From contig NZ_SOAZ01000002.1 in NCBI RefSeq assembly GCF_004364155.1, positions 124,001-188,000 on the forward strand: DNA of 64,000 bases, read 5' to 3'. Position numbers and translations under genes: made by a program. This DNA comes from Fonticella tunisiensis. Its GTDB lineage: Bacteria; Bacillota; Clostridia; Clostridiales; Caloramatoraceae. The notes beneath the pieces were generated by a model. It saw nothing but the letters and a program-made list of their open reading frames with translations, had not been told where the DNA came from and made no database searches. The stretch's first letter is position 1; each line of letters begins with the position of its first letter. Below, piece after piece: positions 295 to 39,170 of this stretch.

Positions 295-421
295 ATTAGA
301 ACTCCCCCTTCATTTAGATAATAGATATGCTGCTGAAAAACTGCGACTTATAATTTTGAATATCTTTATGTTTTTATTTTACAACAGGGATAGGTAAGTA
401 ACAATAGATGAAAACGGTTCG

Positions 422-32867: not shown

Positions 32868-32943
32868 CGGGGTGTGGCGCAGATGGGAGCGCGCGTGGTT
32901 TGGGACCATGAGGTCGCAGGTTCAATCCCTGTCACCCCGACCA
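32868..32943 (+). tRNA. tRNA-Pro (anticodon TGG)
   Basis: A 76-nt cloverleaf with acceptor stem CGGGGTG/CACCCCG, encoded CCA, D-arm GGCGCAGATGGGAGCGC, anticodon stem CGTGG/CCATG with loop TTTGGGA, and T-arm GCAGGTTCAATCCCTGT. The anticodon TGG gives proline. Confidence 0.97.
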
Positions 32944-32997: not shown

Positions 32998-33073
32998 CGG
33001 GGTGTGGCGCAGATGGGAGCGCGCATGGTTCGGGACCATGAGGTCGCAGGTTCGAGCCCTGTCACCCCGACCA
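32998..33073 (+). tRNA. tRNA-Pro (anticodon CGG), prophage attachment gene
   Basis: A 76-nt cloverleaf differing from the upstream tRNA-Pro in only four positions: the anticodon first base (loop TTCGGGA), one anticodon-stem base, and two T-loop-region bases (TTCGAGCCC against TTCAATCCC). The encoded CCA is present. The prophage integrase lies 109 bp downstream and faces it, so the 3' end is the likely attachment core (attL). The matching attR would be outside this window. Confidence 0.95.
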
Positions 33074-33076
33074 GTT

Positions 33077-33168: not shown

Positions 33169-33194
33169 AAAGAAGGCTTTTTTAAGCCTTCTTT
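33169..33194 (-). terminator. Terminator of the integrase gene
   Basis: AAAGAAGGCTT pairs with AAGCCTTCTTT around TTTT and overlaps the integrase stop. On the minus strand it is followed by a T-run (TTTTTTTGC). Confidence 0.82.
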
Positions 33195-34315
33195 AAGAAC
33201 AAATCGTTAAGTTTTTCAGCAGCCTCCTTTTGCATTGTTGGAAGAACGTGGCTATATATATCAAGTGTAATATCTATGCTTGCATGACCTAATCTTTCGC
33301 TAACTATCTTAGGATTTACCCCTTGGAGCAATAACAACGTTGCGTGAGTATGTCTAAGATCATGGAAACGTATATCAGGTAACTCTAACTTTCTTAGTAG
33401 CTTTTTAAATGCATGTGTGATATAATCAGGTTTAAGTTCTTCGCCATTAGGCCATGAACAAACAAGGTTAGTATCTTTATATTCACTACCGAAAAGCAGC
33501 TTATTTTCAAGCTGTTTTTTTCTATGTTGTTTTAAAATAGGTATTACAAACGAAGGTAATTCAACAATTCTCTCTCCAGCATCAGTTTTAGTGTCTAAAA
33601 TAATGTTTTTCCCATTTTTTCTAATAGCAGCACTTTCACTAATAATGATATGTCCTTTTTCTAAATTTACATTAGACCATTTCAAAGCAATTATTTCACC
33701 GCGTCTTAAACCGCAGGTTAGAGCTAATAAGAGAGGAATATGCATAACTTCCTGTGAATTATGTGCATAATCTAAAAGCAAATTCACCTGTTCAGGAGTT
33801 AAAACTTGCATTTTTTTCTTTTCTCTTTTTGGTGGTTCAACAGCTTCACAAGGATTTGAAGGTATAAGTTGCCATTTTACTGCTTGGTTTAAAGCTGTTT
33901 TAAGTGTAGTGTAGTAATGCTTAATTGTAGTAGAATTAATATCTTCTCTTTCATAAAGTTTTGATATAAAACTTTGAATATGAATAGGTTTAAGCTTTGA
34001 TAGTTCTGTAGAACCTAATCCGGGAATCAAGATATTATTAACTATCTTCTCATAGAAAATATAAGTTGTAGGCTTAAGCAAAGGTTTTTTATTTTCAAGC
34101 CATTTTAATAAAAAGTCCTTTAAGGTTGAATTTTTATATTCAACATATTCTCCTTGTTCTATCTTTGCAATCAACTCCGCTAGGGCCTTCTCGGCTTCTT
34201 TTTTTGTCTTGAATCCCCCAACTGATTTTTGTTTACGTTTGCCCGTCAACGGATCCCTGCCTACATCAACAACTATTTGATATCCTGCACCACGCTTTCG
34301 GATATGTCCTCTCAT
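33182..34315 (-). CDS. int: Phage tyrosine recombinase (integrase)
   Basis: About 377 residues. It has an N-terminal arm-binding AP2-like domain (residues 1-55), a SAM-like core-binding domain (about 60-165) and a C-terminal catalytic domain. The catalytic residues are visible: Arg in CGLRRGEI, His/Arg in HDLRHTHATLLL, His in RLGHASIDIT and Tyr in LDIYSHVLP. The ATG at 34315 follows GGAGG by 7 nt. It is transcribed toward the tRNA-Pro, as is usual for tRNA-integrated prophages of Firmicutes. Confidence 0.96.
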   Translation of the reverse strand: MRGHIRKRGAGYQIVVDVGRDPLTGKRKQKSVGGFKTKKEAEKALAELIAKIEQGEYVEYKNSTLKDFLLKWLENKKPLLKPTTYIFYEKIVNNILIPGLGSTELSKLKPIHIQSFISKLYEREDINSTTIKHYYTTLKTALNQAVKWQLIPSNPCEAVEPPKREKKKMQVLTPEQVNLLLDYAHNSQEVMHIPLLLALTCGLRRGEIIALKWSNVNLEKGHIIISESAAIRKNGKNIILDTKTDAGERIVELPSFVIPILKQHRKKQLENKLLFGSEYKDTNLVCSWPNGEELKPDYITHAFKKLLRKLELPDIRFHDLRHTHATLLLLQGVNPKIVSERLGHASIDITLDIYSHVLPTMQKEAAEKLNDLFLKKA

Positions 34316-34520
34316 TTTCATTCCTCCTTTTACCAAAAAATAAAAACCCAACACACATATAGTGCATTGGGTTTCATGAACCTCTCAACGGATTTCATTG
34401 AATCTCTTTTTGGGTTTCTAATATTATTTTAACGAACAAATGTTTGTGTGTCAAGAATAAAATAGACATACTAATTATATATTATATTTAGTAACGTTAA
34501 AAAGTAAATTTTTTAACATA

Positions 34521-35723
34521 TTAATTTATTTCCAATTTTCTTTGTACTGATTCTAACCGTTCTAAGAGTTTTGGATTTGGACCACCAGGCCCTTTTTTTT
34601 GTTGAGAATAACGTTCCAATATTTCAATTTCTTTTGATAAATTTTTTTGTTTTCTATAAATTATTGCTAATTGTTCATAGTACCATGGGGCAACACCCCA
34701 ATTTTCTTTTTTACTTTCACTTTCTACAGCTTCAACTAAACATAGTAATAATTTTTCAGCTTTATCATATTCCCCAGCTCTTTTTAATTCTTTTACTAAA
34801 TCAACATAATCTGTATAATGCTTACCCTGATAATAACCTGGTTTTTCGTTTTGGAACATTGGAGGAAAATCTAATTCAGAAAAAGACGAAGGTTCAATTT
34901 TAGGTTTGCTGGGTTCTTTTTTTTGTTTAGGCAAAGTTTTATCAAATTTAATATAATCAAGATAGATTTGGGCTGTAACAAGTGTATCATCATGAGCTCT
35001 ATGACTGTTTAGATTTATATCAAGGTATTCTTTTATTGTAGTTAGCTTATGATTTGGCAGGTTAGGATATATTTTTCTTGCAACCTTAACTGTGTCTATA
35101 AATTTATTGGTTATCATATCTTCCCCCAAATTATATAGAACAGCATATTTCAAAAACTTAGCATCAAAAGGTGCATTATGTGCAACGATTGGTAAATCCC
35201 CAATAAAGTCAATTAACAAAGGTAAAACTTCTTTTATAGTTGGTTTGTCTTTTACCATATTATTAGATATGCCAGTAATTCTTGTTATTTCAGGAGGTAT
35301 TTTAATCAAAGGGTTAATAAGTGTTTGAAATTCATCAATTAAGACACCATTTTTATATTTGAGAATTGAAACTTCAATAATTTTATCAGTAGAAGGGTTA
35401 AGACCTGTCGTTTCAAAGTCTAACACAACAAATTCATCAAATGCTTCAAGTGAATAATTAGGATTGTTTATTATTTTTTCAGGTTTATTTTCAAAGTTAA
35501 TATTTTCATTGTTGTTAATTTCTATTTTTATATCTTTAATTTTATTATATTTGAAGAGTTTATTTGCTAATTTGAAGCCTAACTTGTATGAAATGTAAAT
35601 AGCAATAAATAAAACGAAAAAACCTAAAAAAGGATTTTCGATTTTTTCAAAAATAGGTGAAAAAAAACTTGTAATTATAATTGTTAATATAACTCCTATT
35701 ATTTTTCTTGAAATATTTTTCAT
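34521..35723 (-). CDS. Membrane-anchored DEDDh 3'-5' exonuclease with C-terminal helical repeats
   Basis: 400 residues. Two N-terminal membrane helices (about 8-24 and 32-52) precede a PolC/DnaQ-type exonuclease domain at 97-260. The catalytic set is complete: DFETTGL (D102, E104), HNAPFD (D187) and HRAHDD (H241, D246). Residues 295-395 form TPR-like helices (AGEYDKAEKLLLCLVEAVES). The ATG follows GGAGG by 8 nt. It is the last gene of the leftward block repressor - ImmA - small ORF - exonuclease, so it is likely expressed in the lysogen. A superinfection-exclusion or defence function is inferred, not shown. It is not a replication proofreader, given the membrane anchor. Confidence 0.85.
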   Translation of the reverse strand: MKNISRKIIGVILTIIITSFFSPIFEKIENPFLGFFVLFIAIYISYKLGFKLANKLFKYNKIKDIKIEINNNENINFENKPEKIINNPNYSLEAFDEFVVLDFETTGLNPSTDKIIEVSILKYKNGVLIDEFQTLINPLIKIPPEITRITGISNNMVKDKPTIKEVLPLLIDFIGDLPIVAHNAPFDAKFLKYAVLYNLGEDMITNKFIDTVKVARKIYPNLPNHKLTTIKEYLDINLNSHRAHDDTLVTAQIYLDYIKFDKTLPKQKKEPSKPKIEPSSFSELDFPPMFQNEKPGYYQGKHYTDYVDLVKELKRAGEYDKAEKLLLCLVEAVESESKKENWGVAPWYYEQLAIIYRKQKNLSKEIEILERYSQQKKGPGGPNPKLLERLESVQRKLEIN

Positions 35724-35735
35724 ATCCCCAACCTC

Positions 35736-35909
35736 CTAATAAAATTTATATTCTAATAATTCTTTAGGCACATCAAAGTAAAATTTTATTTGTTCAACTG
35801 TCACGCTTTTGAACTGATGCTTATCCAAATCTATTTCATTGATTAGTAATTCTGTGGCAAATATAGTATCCAACAGCCCCATAACAACATATGTAAGGTT
35901 GGTGCTCAA
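35736..35909 (-). CDS. Small protein of 57 residues upstream of the exonuclease gene
   Basis: A TTG-started ORF beginning MSTNLTYVVMGLLDTIFATE and ending VPKELLEYKFY. Its TAG stop overlaps the GGAGG ribosome site of the exonuclease gene, 12 nt before that start, as in translationally coupled pairs. Its own ribosome site is weak, so the start is uncertain. The sequence has protein-like composition but I do not recognise it. It could also be the leftover C-terminus of a larger gene. Confidence 0.45.
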   Translation of the reverse strand: MSTNLTYVVMGLLDTIFATELLINEIDLDKHQFKSVTVEQIKFYFDVPKELLEYKFY

Positions 35910-35937
35910 AGGCTCTCGAATTTTGGTCGCCTATTTT

Positions 35938-36360
35938 TTATCTAATCATAAGTAATTCAACTGGTATATTAAAAGTTGCGGCAATATACTCTAATGAATA
36001 TCCAGAGTATTGATTTAAAACATCATCAGGAATTAAAAGGTATGAACAAAATTGATTAGCTTCATGTTCAAATCTATTTACATTAAAGAGAGTATATTGT
36101 CTTAAAAAAGTACAATTAATTTTAGTATGAAGTACAGCATGTCCAAGTTCATGACCACAAACATACATTCTCTCGTGATAAGATAACTGACTATTTAGGT
36201 AAATAAATTTATTTTTCTTTTCATATTGGTAAATACCTTTGACCTCTGCAGGGAAATCAAAGGTTTTAACAGTTACACCTAAAAAATCAGCAATTTCAAA
36301 AGGATTATTTGTTTTATATTTCTTTGTTAATTTATTAACTTTATTCTTGATGTAATTCAA
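35938..36360 (-). CDS. ImmA/IrrE-type metallopeptidase
   Basis: 140 residues with the zinc-peptidase motif GHELGHAVLH and the third ligand region FEHEANQFCSYLLIP. ImmA-type proteins cleave the cognate phage or ICE repressor to trigger induction. It lies 46 nt downstream of the repressor gene in the same leftward block. The ATG follows GGGGAG. Confidence 0.9.
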   Translation of the reverse strand: MNYIKNKVNKLTKKYKTNNPFEIADFLGVTVKTFDFPAEVKGIYQYEKKNKFIYLNSQLSYHERMYVCGHELGHAVLHTKINCTFLRQYTLFNVNRFEHEANQFCSYLLIPDDVLNQYSGYSLEYIAATFNIPVELLMIR

Positions 36361-36406
36361 AAAATCCCCTCCCCAAATTGGCGACCATATAACCTAAAAG
36401 GGAGAA

Positions 36407-36886
36407 TTATTCTTTATTATTATCTTTTCTATATTTTTTAGGAGTATATTTTTTATTGATAATCTTAGCTTGCCTTATACCAAACTCAAGAGCAGCTAAA
36501 ATACTTTCTACAGCTTCCTCTGAAACTGGTTCCCCATAAAACATAAGACCTTGTTGTTGAAGTAAATCCTCACGCATTTTTTCTAATCTCTTTGCAATGT
36601 CTTTCTCTTCTTTAGGGGTGAATCGTGGCATATCTGGATTGGAAGGTTCATTTTTTTCAATATATCCAGCGGCCATAAACATATATTCTTCATCAACATC
36701 TAAAGATTGAGCAAGAATTTTTATTGTTTCAGCATCAGGCTTTTCTGTAATTCCACTTTCAATTCTACTTATAGTAGTATTACTCAACCCAGTTAATTGT
36801 GCTAATTTCCTCTGGCTGTAACCTTTACTCTGCCTTAGTCTAACAATATATTCACCGAAGGTTTCGTTATTTTTCTTTTCTATCAT
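36407..36886 (-). CDS. Phage XRE-family repressor (CI-like)
   Basis: About 159 residues. The HTH is at residues 8-65 (YSQRKLAQLTGLSNTTISRI) and the C-terminal part is a helical dimerisation or ImmA-target region (YGEPVSEEAVESILAALEFG). It has no S24 protease domain, consistent with cleavage by the adjacent ImmA-type peptidase. I prefer the ATG at 36886, with GGAGGAG about 10 nt upstream; the longer frame adds an unlikely hydrophobic leader. It is divergent from cro across an operator region. Confidence 0.88.
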   Translation of the reverse strand: MIEKKNNETFGEYIVRLRQSKGYSQRKLAQLTGLSNTTISRIESGITEKPDAETIKILAQSLDVDEEYMFMAAGYIEKNEPSNPDMPRFTPKEEKDIAKRLEKMREDLLQQQGLMFYGEPVSEEAVESILAALEFGIRQAKIINKKYTPKKYRKDNNKE

Positions 36887-36936
36887 AGATTTACTTCTCC
36901 TCCTTATTCTTGCTCTAATAATAATTATATCAAAAA

Positions 36937-37033
36937 CGTTGCACACAAGGAACAAAATTAAATAAATTTTTCAAAAAAGTGTTGCATAAAAGCTACATTT
37001 TAGGTTATAATAAAAGTGTCACATAAAAGCAAC
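36937..37033. promoter_or_regulatory. Repressor/Cro operator region
   Basis: Three related sites lie between repressor and cro: CGTTGCACACAAGGAAC (36937-36953), GTTGCATAAAAGCTAC (36981-36996) and GTCACATAAAAGCAAC (37018-37033). The half-site pattern is GTTGC-N6-GCAAC. The last two are spaced 37 bp apart and share ATAAAAGC. Confidence 0.55.
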
Positions 37034-37051
37034 GAAAATGGAGGTGATTAT

Positions 37052-37294
37052 ATGGTTTTGGTTGCAAATACAAATGAATTTAATAAATTAAAAAAGGAAT
37101 TAGGTCTAAATTATAGCCAATTAGCTCAAAAAATCGGTGTTTCAAGGACACAATTATGGAGAGTTTTAAATCAACAATGTGTTCCTGGAGAACAATTTAT
37201 TACAGGATTTAAGATAGCTTTCCCAAATTGTGAATTTGAAAAATTTTTTTTACTTCAAACGTTGCAACAAAGTGACACACAATCAACAGCTTAG
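37052..37294 (+). CDS. Cro-like XRE regulator
   Basis: 80 residues with one HTH (YSQLAQKIGVSRTQLWRVLN) and a short C-terminal tail. The ATG at 37052 follows GGAGGTGAT by 4 nt. It is the first gene of the rightward early operon and is divergent from the repressor, the usual cro position. Confidence 0.82.
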   Translation: MVLVANTNEFNKLKKELGLNYSQLAQKIGVSRTQLWRVLNQQCVPGEQFITGFKIAFPNCEFEKFFLLQTLQQSDTQSTA

Positions 37295-38054: not shown

Positions 38055-38594
38055 ATGGATTTAAGATTAAGTGATGTATTCCTACCAGTGGAAGAAACAG
38101 AGCAAGAAGGGTTTAGAGTTGATGATGATTTAAAGGCTGATTGGTGCTTAGACAAAATAAGAGAAGCAAACGCAGAATATAACAGGTTTGAAATGGTTGT
38201 AAATGCAAAGATTGAACAACTACAACAAGCTTTAAAGAAGGCACAGGAAAAAAGAGATAGAGAAGTTGGTTTCTTTGAAGGCAAGCTTAGAGAATACTTT
38301 GAAACAGTAAAAGCAAAAGAGACTAAAACACAAAAGAGTTACTCATTACCAAGTGGCAAATTGGTGCTTAAATATCAGCAACCAGAGTTTAAAAGAGACG
38401 AAGACACTTTATTAAACTGGGTTGAGAATAATAAACCTCAATTTATAAAAATTAAAAAATCAGTGGATTGGAGTAACTTAAAGAAAAATGTAAAAGTAGT
38501 AAATGACTTAATAATTGATAGTCAAACTGGAGAAATCATTGAAGGGGTAACGATTGAAGAAAGAGAACCAAAGTTTGTTGTGGAGGTGGAATAA
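38055..38594 (+). CDS. Host-nuclease inhibitor Gam-like protein
   Basis: 179 residues. A long N-terminal helix pair (DKIREANAEYNRFEMVVNAK) leads to KSYSLPSGKLVLKYQQPEF, the segment seen in Gam-family phage proteins that bind DNA ends and block exonucleases. It lies immediately upstream of the ERF annealing protein (no gap), forming a recombination module. The ATG follows GGAGG by about 9 nt. Confidence 0.72.
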   Translation: MDLRLSDVFLPVEETEQEGFRVDDDLKADWCLDKIREANAEYNRFEMVVNAKIEQLQQALKKAQEKRDREVGFFEGKLREYFETVKAKETKTQKSYSLPSGKLVLKYQQPEFKRDEDTLLNWVENNKPQFIKIKKSVDWSNLKKNVKVVNDLIIDSQTGEIIEGVTIEEREPKFVVEVE

Positions 38595-39170
38595 ATGTCA
38601 GTAAATCAAAAACTTTTAGATATACAACAAGAACTTAAAGCACCAAAAAATCAATTTAATTCATTTGGTAATTATCATTATAGAAGTTGTGAGGATATTC
38701 TTGAAGGATTAAAGCCTTTATTAAAAAAGAATAAAGCTACTCTAATAATTACTGATGAATTAGTTCTGATAGGACAAAGATATTACATTAAAGCAACTGC
38801 AAGACTTATAGATGCCGAAACAGGAGATTTTATAGAAACAACAGCATATGCAAGAGAAGAAGAACAGAAAAAAGGAATGGATGGCTCACAAATAACAGGT
38901 GCAAGCTCAAGCTATGCTAGAAAATATGCGCTTAATGGATTATTTGCTATTGATGATACAAATGACAGTGATGTAACTAATACAGGTGAAAATAAATCAA
39001 ATGAAAACAAAACAAGTTCTAAACAACAAACAAAGAATACTGCGAATGAAATGAAATGTAGCAAATGCGGAGTTGAAATCACACAAGCAGTAAAAACATA
39101 TAGTGAAAAGTTCTATGGTAAACCTTTATGTCAGAATTGTCAAAAGACAGAGAAAAAACAAGGGCAATAG
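38595..39170 (+). CDS. erf: ERF-family single-strand annealing protein with zinc ribbon
   Basis: 191 residues. The ERF domain covers 1-130 (YHYRSCEDILEGLKPLLKKN and QITGASSSYARKYALNGLFA). A Ser/Asn/Lys linker and a C-terminal zinc ribbon (MKCSKCGVEI, PLCQNCQ) follow. ERF proteins anneal complementary ssDNA in phage recombination and circularisation. The start abuts the Gam stop. The zinc ribbon is an addition seen in some Firmicute phages. Confidence 0.87.
   Translation: MSVNQKLLDIQQELKAPKNQFNSFGNYHYRSCEDILEGLKPLLKKNKATLIITDELVLIGQRYYIKATARLIDAETGDFIETTAYAREEEQKKGMDGSQITGASSSYARKYALNGLFAIDDTNDSDVTNTGENKSNENKTSSKQQTKNTANEMKCSKCGVEITQAVKTYSEKFYGKPLCQNCQKTEKKQGQ

Follow-up and report, generated by a model that had tools for sequence, protein, structure and literature searches.

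A putative membrane-anchored DEDDh exonuclease in the lysogeny operon of a Fonticella tunisiensis prophage, a candidate guard of DNA entry

Introduction

Why would the lysogeny operon of a prophage encode an exonuclease that is predicted to sit in the membrane? Prophages carry cargo beside the repressor, some of it excluding other phages at the cell surface or the membrane. The sie genes of lactococcal prophages belong to the lysogeny module and specify membrane proteins that the lysogen expresses (PMC6127208), and ltp lies within the lysogeny module of phage TP-J34 (PMC3952083). A preliminary description of 64,000 nucleotides of the F. tunisiensis genome (the window, located on contig C2 of a 3.10-Mb assembly) proposed that an exonuclease encoded behind a phage repressor is made in the lysogen and degrades incoming DNA at the membrane. 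Here we examined the gene, the protein and the same locus in other elements. Beyond that description, we report a recurrent anchored architecture, swapped cargo at the locus, and a C-terminal tail that on sequence comparison is a mobile module.

Results

The element is an integrated, complete-looking prophage of about 42 kb, since a 51-bp att repeat in a tRNA-Pro gene (Table 1) has an exact second copy at C2 198961-199011, about 42 kb away, and the element also carries terminase, portal, major head, tape measure and tail fibre genes. The same prophage has been binned in IMG/VR as a 37-kb virus. The first tRNA-Pro gene of the window (32868-32943) also matches the att repeat (48 bp at 94%). Near attR, a HipA_2-like kinase gene is followed by a DUF3037 gene (C2 about 192728-194370; 68728-70370 on the scale of the window, beyond its end), and the pair is possibly a second cargo or a toxin-antitoxin-like pair of the same element.

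Table 1. Features of the immunity-integrase region, in positions of the window
Feature	Position	Strand	Basis or detail
attL, 51-bp repeat in the 3' part of tRNA-Pro(cgg) (32998-33073)	33025-33075	+	
Tyrosine integrase	33182-34354	-	Pfam 2.8e-28
Terminator-like hairpin between exonuclease and integrase	34343-34375	-	
Sigma-70-like promoter for integrase	34426-34454	-	TTGACA-17-TAAAAT
2TM-DEDDh-TPR-like exonuclease gene, 400 aa	34521-35723	-	ORF, Pfam, hydropathy, structure model, active site
Exonuclease parts	TM about residues 7-50; exonuclease 97-263; tail about 300-399		
57-codon ORF, probably what is left of a second immA-type gene (3' end)	35736-35909	-	Peptidase_M78 C-terminal match
ImmA-type metalloprotease (Peptidase_M78)	35938-36360	-	Pfam 1.3e-20
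Immunity repressor (HTH_3), ATG at 36884-36886	36407-36886	-	Pfam 2.2e-14
Extended -10 (TGATATAAT), probable repressor-operon promoter	36924-36932	-	sequence; inferred
Three operator-like direct repeats between divergent promoters	36925-36953, 36968-36996, 37005-37033		
Divergent Cro-like HTH gene, lytic operon start	37016-37294	+	ORF, Pfam, PHROG

Read leftward, the ORF list and the Pfam matches give the order repressor, ImmA-type protease, 57-codon ORF, 400-residue exonuclease, integrase and tRNA-Pro. The ORFs of the exonuclease, the 57-codon ORF, the protease and the repressor reported in the preliminary description were all found again in place, and its assignment of the exonuclease to the repressor-immA operon, in the same direction, was confirmed by the ORF positions and by a sequence scan of the operon, which found no terminator-like site between repressor and exonuclease. 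Promoter-like matches within this operon were at chance level. The integrase has a promoter-like site of its own, past a gap downstream of the exonuclease. Because no terminator-like site separates the exonuclease from the repressor, the probable repressor promoter lies under operator-like repeats, and a good Shine-Dalgarno sequence (AGGAGG) stands before the exonuclease ATG, the exonuclease is likely expressed in the lysogen together with the repressor and immA, as judged from gene order.

Three members of the four-gene lysogeny operon described earlier, the repressor, ImmA and the exonuclease, stood, whereas the 57-codon ORF appears to be a gene remnant instead of an independent gene. It resembles the last ~45 residues of an ImmA protease (Peptidase_M78 positions 79-122, E=0.01), aligns with the C-termini of immA products and has a PHROG metallo-protease match (E=0.09), and no other copy of it was found in the genome. 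The ORF is thus probably the 3' end of a second immA, left as a recombination scar of the kind expected from cargo swapping at this place. On the simplest reading, recombination inside or beside immA brought in the exonuclease gene together with the 3' end of an immA from another prophage. We rejected the idea that the 57-codon ORF is a functional partner of the exonuclease.

The exonuclease matched RNase_T of Pfam at residues 99-254 (4.4e-38). Its best match among solved structures was the PolC exonuclease 2p1j (2.2e-33), to which Foldseek also matched the predicted model (2e-14); the structure search gave 41% identity to 2p1j. The AlphaFold model has a mean pLDDT of 85.6, with values above 90 through most of the exonuclease domain. 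The catalytic residues D102, E104, D187, H241 and D246 are present in every one of the 18 aligned proteins (the exonuclease and 17 relatives), which indicates that catalysis is selected. By fold and catalytic set the protein is a DEDDh (RNase T / PolC-type) exonuclease, as first described, and we infer a 3'-5' DNase activity for its DEDDh domain.

In the tree, the domain clusters with chromosomal, single-domain exonucleases from the host family (support 97). This grouping and the adjoining gene remnant could also point to a host exonuclease that was recently captured and now drifts after recombination with no current function. We give that explanation next to no credence: the 400-codon frame is open, the active site is complete and the ribosome-binding site is good, and the captured domain has been given an anchor and a tail in an architecture that recurs elsewhere.

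Hydropathy alone was used to call the membrane segments, and it marks two hydrophobic stretches at residues 7-25 and 32-50 (mean hydropathy about 2.0). The N-terminus and the stretch after the second helix are basic, and the 5-residue loop between the helices is neutral. From this positive-inside charge pattern, which is also present in the relatives L123, L124, L136, L138 and L061, the protein is predicted to form a two-helix hairpin whose ends, like the nuclease, lie in the cytosol. The two membrane helices proposed earlier therefore hold as a prediction from hydropathy, charge pattern and the helices of the model. The C-terminal 100 residues form five helices in the AlphaFold model; their match to TPR_12 (6.9e-4) is weak and below the Pfam cut-off, but the five helices and the conservation of the tail as a module (see below) agree with the TPR-like repeats noted before.

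Several assignments were considered and rejected. A replicative proofreading exonuclease, which the preliminary description had already argued against, does not fit a protein with a membrane anchor and a TPR-like tail in place of a polymerase link. Replication initiation of the prophage is DnaD-like, the ORF list holds no polymerase-sized ORF in the prophage part of the window, and the PolC-like gene of the host is separate, on another contig. PADLOC returned its generic DEDDh model and a weaker match to the candidate PDC-S48 (profile positions 5-236 of 411); membership of PDC-S48 was rejected because the match is weaker than that of the DEDDh model and the relatives match by the exonuclease domain only. 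In a search of phage records with the full protein, 235 records matched, all by the exonuclease domain only and none covering 80%.

Comparison of the same locus in related prophages, the check that had been suggested for this reading, was positive: the slot between the immunity genes and the integrase holds varied genes across prophages, as a scan with an integrase profile showed. Anchored DEDDh genes lie in this slot in unrelated prophages, on different DEDDh lineages: L124, L129, L136, L138, L061/L242 and L123, and L211 and L217, which the integrase scan added. The order is repressor, exonuclease, integrase in L124, and repressor, probable ImmA, exonuclease, integrase in L136 and L138; the L129 protein is an anchored DEDDh-BRCT. 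The same order, with an anchored DEDDh gene, is seen in the unverified record of Staphylococcus phage O1-69, and the Streptococcus satellite Javan739 (L151) encodes at this place a DEDDh protein with a different anchor, a C-terminal TM2 domain. Used as a query in IMG/VR, the Javan739 protein matched nothing but itself. DUF3800-like proteins also recur in the slot (L211 4413-5165; L062 7598-8386; L217 4485-5297; L210 2049-2882), where their genes, Pfam-matched for L211, adjoin anchored DEDDh, soluble DEDDh or HIRAN-tail genes. In L034 (6642-7808), a soluble DEDDh gene with another C-terminal domain stands beside DNA methyltransferase-like and, by sequence, apparent Tn7-like transposition genes.

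To quantify the association, we scanned IMG/VR with a DEDDh profile whose seed included anchored and slot members, and obtained 80 loci, 71 of them scorable. An anchor was called in 7 of the 15 viral DEDDh proteins encoded at most 2.5 kb from an integrase and in 2 of the 56 others (Fisher p=1.4e-4, kinship ignored); at 1.5 kb the counts were 6/13 and 3/58 (p=7.5e-4, kinship ignored). The threshold and the distance behind these counts were set by us, some of the loci are related (e.g. L136/L138), and many contigs end before any integrase is visible. A relatedness-corrected test gave an independent-pairs p of about 0.5 with 4 pairs only and is underpowered. On the tree, the label of being both anchored and near an integrase changes at least five times, on well supported branches. 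These changes, together with the grouping of the window domain with single-domain chromosomal exonucleases, indicate that anchoring was gained repeatedly. Anchoring is not universal at the slot, since some of the exonucleases there are soluble (DEDDh-BRCT and DEDDh-tail proteins); L125, L126, L128, L131, L150 and L070 have no anchor.

The place of the gene next to int, and the many slot members with a repair-like DEDDh-BRCT architecture, could also indicate that the enzyme handles the phage's own DNA, processing ends in integration, excision or recombination, and that its anchoring is incidental. We consider this highly unlikely. Tyrosine recombinases need no exonuclease, the slot is often occupied by unrelated genes, so the function is dispensable, and the phage has recombination genes of its own in the lytic operon, Gam and ERF. 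The two lie at 38055-39170 (+), a gene for a Mu Gam-like DNA-end-binding protein being followed by an ERF-family annealing gene. As a speculation, Gam could in principle shield the phage's own DNA ends from its exonuclease. Gam is present here and in L061. Of 159 viral loci that were fetched, 4 have it and these four lack an anchored exonuclease, a count that is uninformative because the flanks of the fetched loci are mostly short.

The satellite Javan739, with its anchored DEDDh gene, comes from S. pneumoniae, which is competent, and the host genome studied here has ComEC. Both observations bear on a different guard, one against incoming single-stranded DNA from competence or conjugation, which would prevent deletion of the prophage by recombination as well as the entry of rivals. 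Such a role would suit the substrate preference of the fold: the DEDDh domain of S. aureus DinG, a close relative, degrades ssDNA to mononucleotides (PMC12345164). Blocking of transformation is a known trait of mobile elements, and some of them use DNases for it (PMC4774983). However, the known blockers work through secreted DNases or the disruption of competence genes and not through membrane exonucleases; ComEC is no proof of competence, as the same family also matches control genomes such as E. coli; and not every host of a slot exonuclease is known as competent. We regard this explanation as unlikely.

The tail was followed with a profile of its own, which found 53 loci in named genomes. 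It was absent from 225 other genomes of the same order and from phage records, and was found in plasmids, distant genomes and IMG/VR. DEDDh-tail fusions occur in Atopobacter phocae and two Clostridia/Bacillota MAGs, and in Bradyrhizobium the tail is joined to DEDDh-BRCT in both domain orders. The MAG proteins L063 and L064 have the whole anchor-DEDDh-tail plan, but their DEDDh domains belong to a different branch of the tree. In haloarchaea the tail is fused to an Mrr-type nuclease and hydrophobic helices, and an Mrr-tail fusion was found beside CRISPR genes; in some plasmids the tail lies near Abi, HipA or R-M genes. HIRAN-tail fusions are present in many Actinobacteria (assigned by sequence appearance). 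By these sequence comparisons the tail is a mobile module common to HIRAN, Mrr nuclease and other DEDDh domains, and it probably binds a partner. In prophage L211, two separate genes side by side encode a TPR protein and an anchored DEDDh enzyme; in L061, one operon encodes both an anchored DEDDh protein and an anchored protein with the tail. Since nuclease and tail are fused in one genome and adjacent in others, a functional link between them is supported.

At the slot of Thermovorax subterraneus the order is repressor, immA, HIRAN-tail gene, DUF3800-like gene, broken integrase and tRNA-Thr. The same tail fused to HIRAN in this place, and the reading of our exonuclease together with repressor and immA, might suggest a damper or sensor of prophage induction, which would trim ssDNA or 3' ends, limit RecA filaments and so tune the ImmA/repressor switch. 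Precedents exist: in pneumococcal prophages the lysogeny-module gene szaL alters induction separately from ImmAR, the lysogeny module of another prophage includes thaL, whose product is a transmembrane HIRAN protein (PMC12637031), and genes of ICEBs1 reduce RecA filaments (PMC11841131). Even so, the repeated membrane anchoring is left unexplained. No exonuclease is described among the products of szaL, thaL and the ram genes, and the ram genes come into play only once the element has been activated. An effect on induction is, in our judgement, rather improbable.

Discussion

The strongest reading of the locus is a nuclease that would be made in the lysogen, face the cytosol and act on DNA near the membrane. 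In our favoured interpretation, which we hold at just short of an even chance, it is a cargo nuclease of the lysogeny operon that guards DNA entry, chiefly against superinfecting phages or other mobile elements. The exonuclease would be made alongside the repressor and ImmA, and the two-helix hairpin would hold the 3'-5' DEDDh exonuclease at the inner face of the membrane, where its TPR-like tail probably binds a partner. Its targets would be the ends of such incoming DNA close to the membrane, a place where the resident chromosome has no free ends. Given the precedent of the sie and ltp genes in lysogeny modules, superinfection exclusion by such an anchored exonuclease is plausible.

Guarding of DNA entry is favoured by the intact active site, the predicted cytosolic topology, the repeated anchoring at the slot, the swapping of cargo and the fusions of the tail. 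Several points count against it. The exclusion proteins known to us from this location work at the membrane or stop DNA from being injected, and do not digest DNA. The usual preference of DEDDh enzymes is for single strands or 3' ends, whereas phages inject double-stranded DNA. Several exonucleases in the slot have no anchor, the PADLOC matches are confined to the generic DEDDh model and the weaker PDC-S48, and the test of the anchor-integrase association that corrects for kinship is underpowered. More tentatively still, and at somewhat below an even chance, we propose that the slot recurrently takes membrane-tethered, cytosol-facing DEDDh exonucleases with different anchors, which would form an undescribed class of entry guards of lysogens with a shuffled TPR-like/HIRAN module. 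Our searches of PMC, a collection that mostly leaves subscription journals outside its coverage, yielded no publication on DEDDh enzymes anchored in the membrane and encoded in lysogeny modules.

The gene resembles the sie2009-type genes and ltp of TP-J34 in its place in the lysogeny module, its reading in the repressor direction, its expected expression in the lysogen and its predicted membrane product (PMC6127208, PMC3952083). By description, the Sie and Ltp proteins differ in having no known nuclease, while the nuclease predicted here faces the cytosol; Ltp lies outside the membrane and prevents injection, and the exonuclease would act on the cytosolic side. With 2p1j and the exonuclease domain of S. 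aureus DinG it shares a PolC/DnaQ-type DEDDh domain with a full active site, but unlike these relatives it has no polymerase or helicase part, carries a predicted anchor and a TPR-like tail, and is encoded in a prophage immunity operon. Like the thaL product as described, it is a predicted transmembrane, DNA-related protein of a lysogeny module, and HIRAN is the partner of the tail in the Thermovorax slot; HIRAN, however, is a DNA-binding type of domain and not a DEDDh nuclease. The diDNases are also DEDD nucleases of mobile elements, found beside HTH or HIRAN and HipA genes and with a suggested role in immunity (PMC11706625). Compared by description, they belong to the dinucleotide-specific NrnC/Orn-like branch with no membrane anchor described. 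The best Foldseek, Pfam and NCBIfam matches of our exonuclease are PolC/DnaQ-type. Among DEDDh nucleases linked to anti-phage defence is Cap18, an effector of CBASS; unlike Cap18, the exonuclease here has no CBASS partners.

If the favoured interpretation is true, it would represent a different principle of exclusion, in which DNA is destroyed where it enters, gained repeatedly at one locus. The tail shared with HIRAN, Mrr and DEDDh domains would then provide a sequence handle for finding more such systems. HIRAN-TPR-like fusions were seen in L062 (6461-7372), L060 (6258-6926, where the HIRAN part seems degraded), L075, L080 and the Actinobacterial loci L089-L110; in L062 and L060 the genes lie between immA and the integrase, with a tRNA gene adjoining. 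HIRAN-TPR-like is apparently an unnamed module that recurs in the immunity operons of mobile elements.
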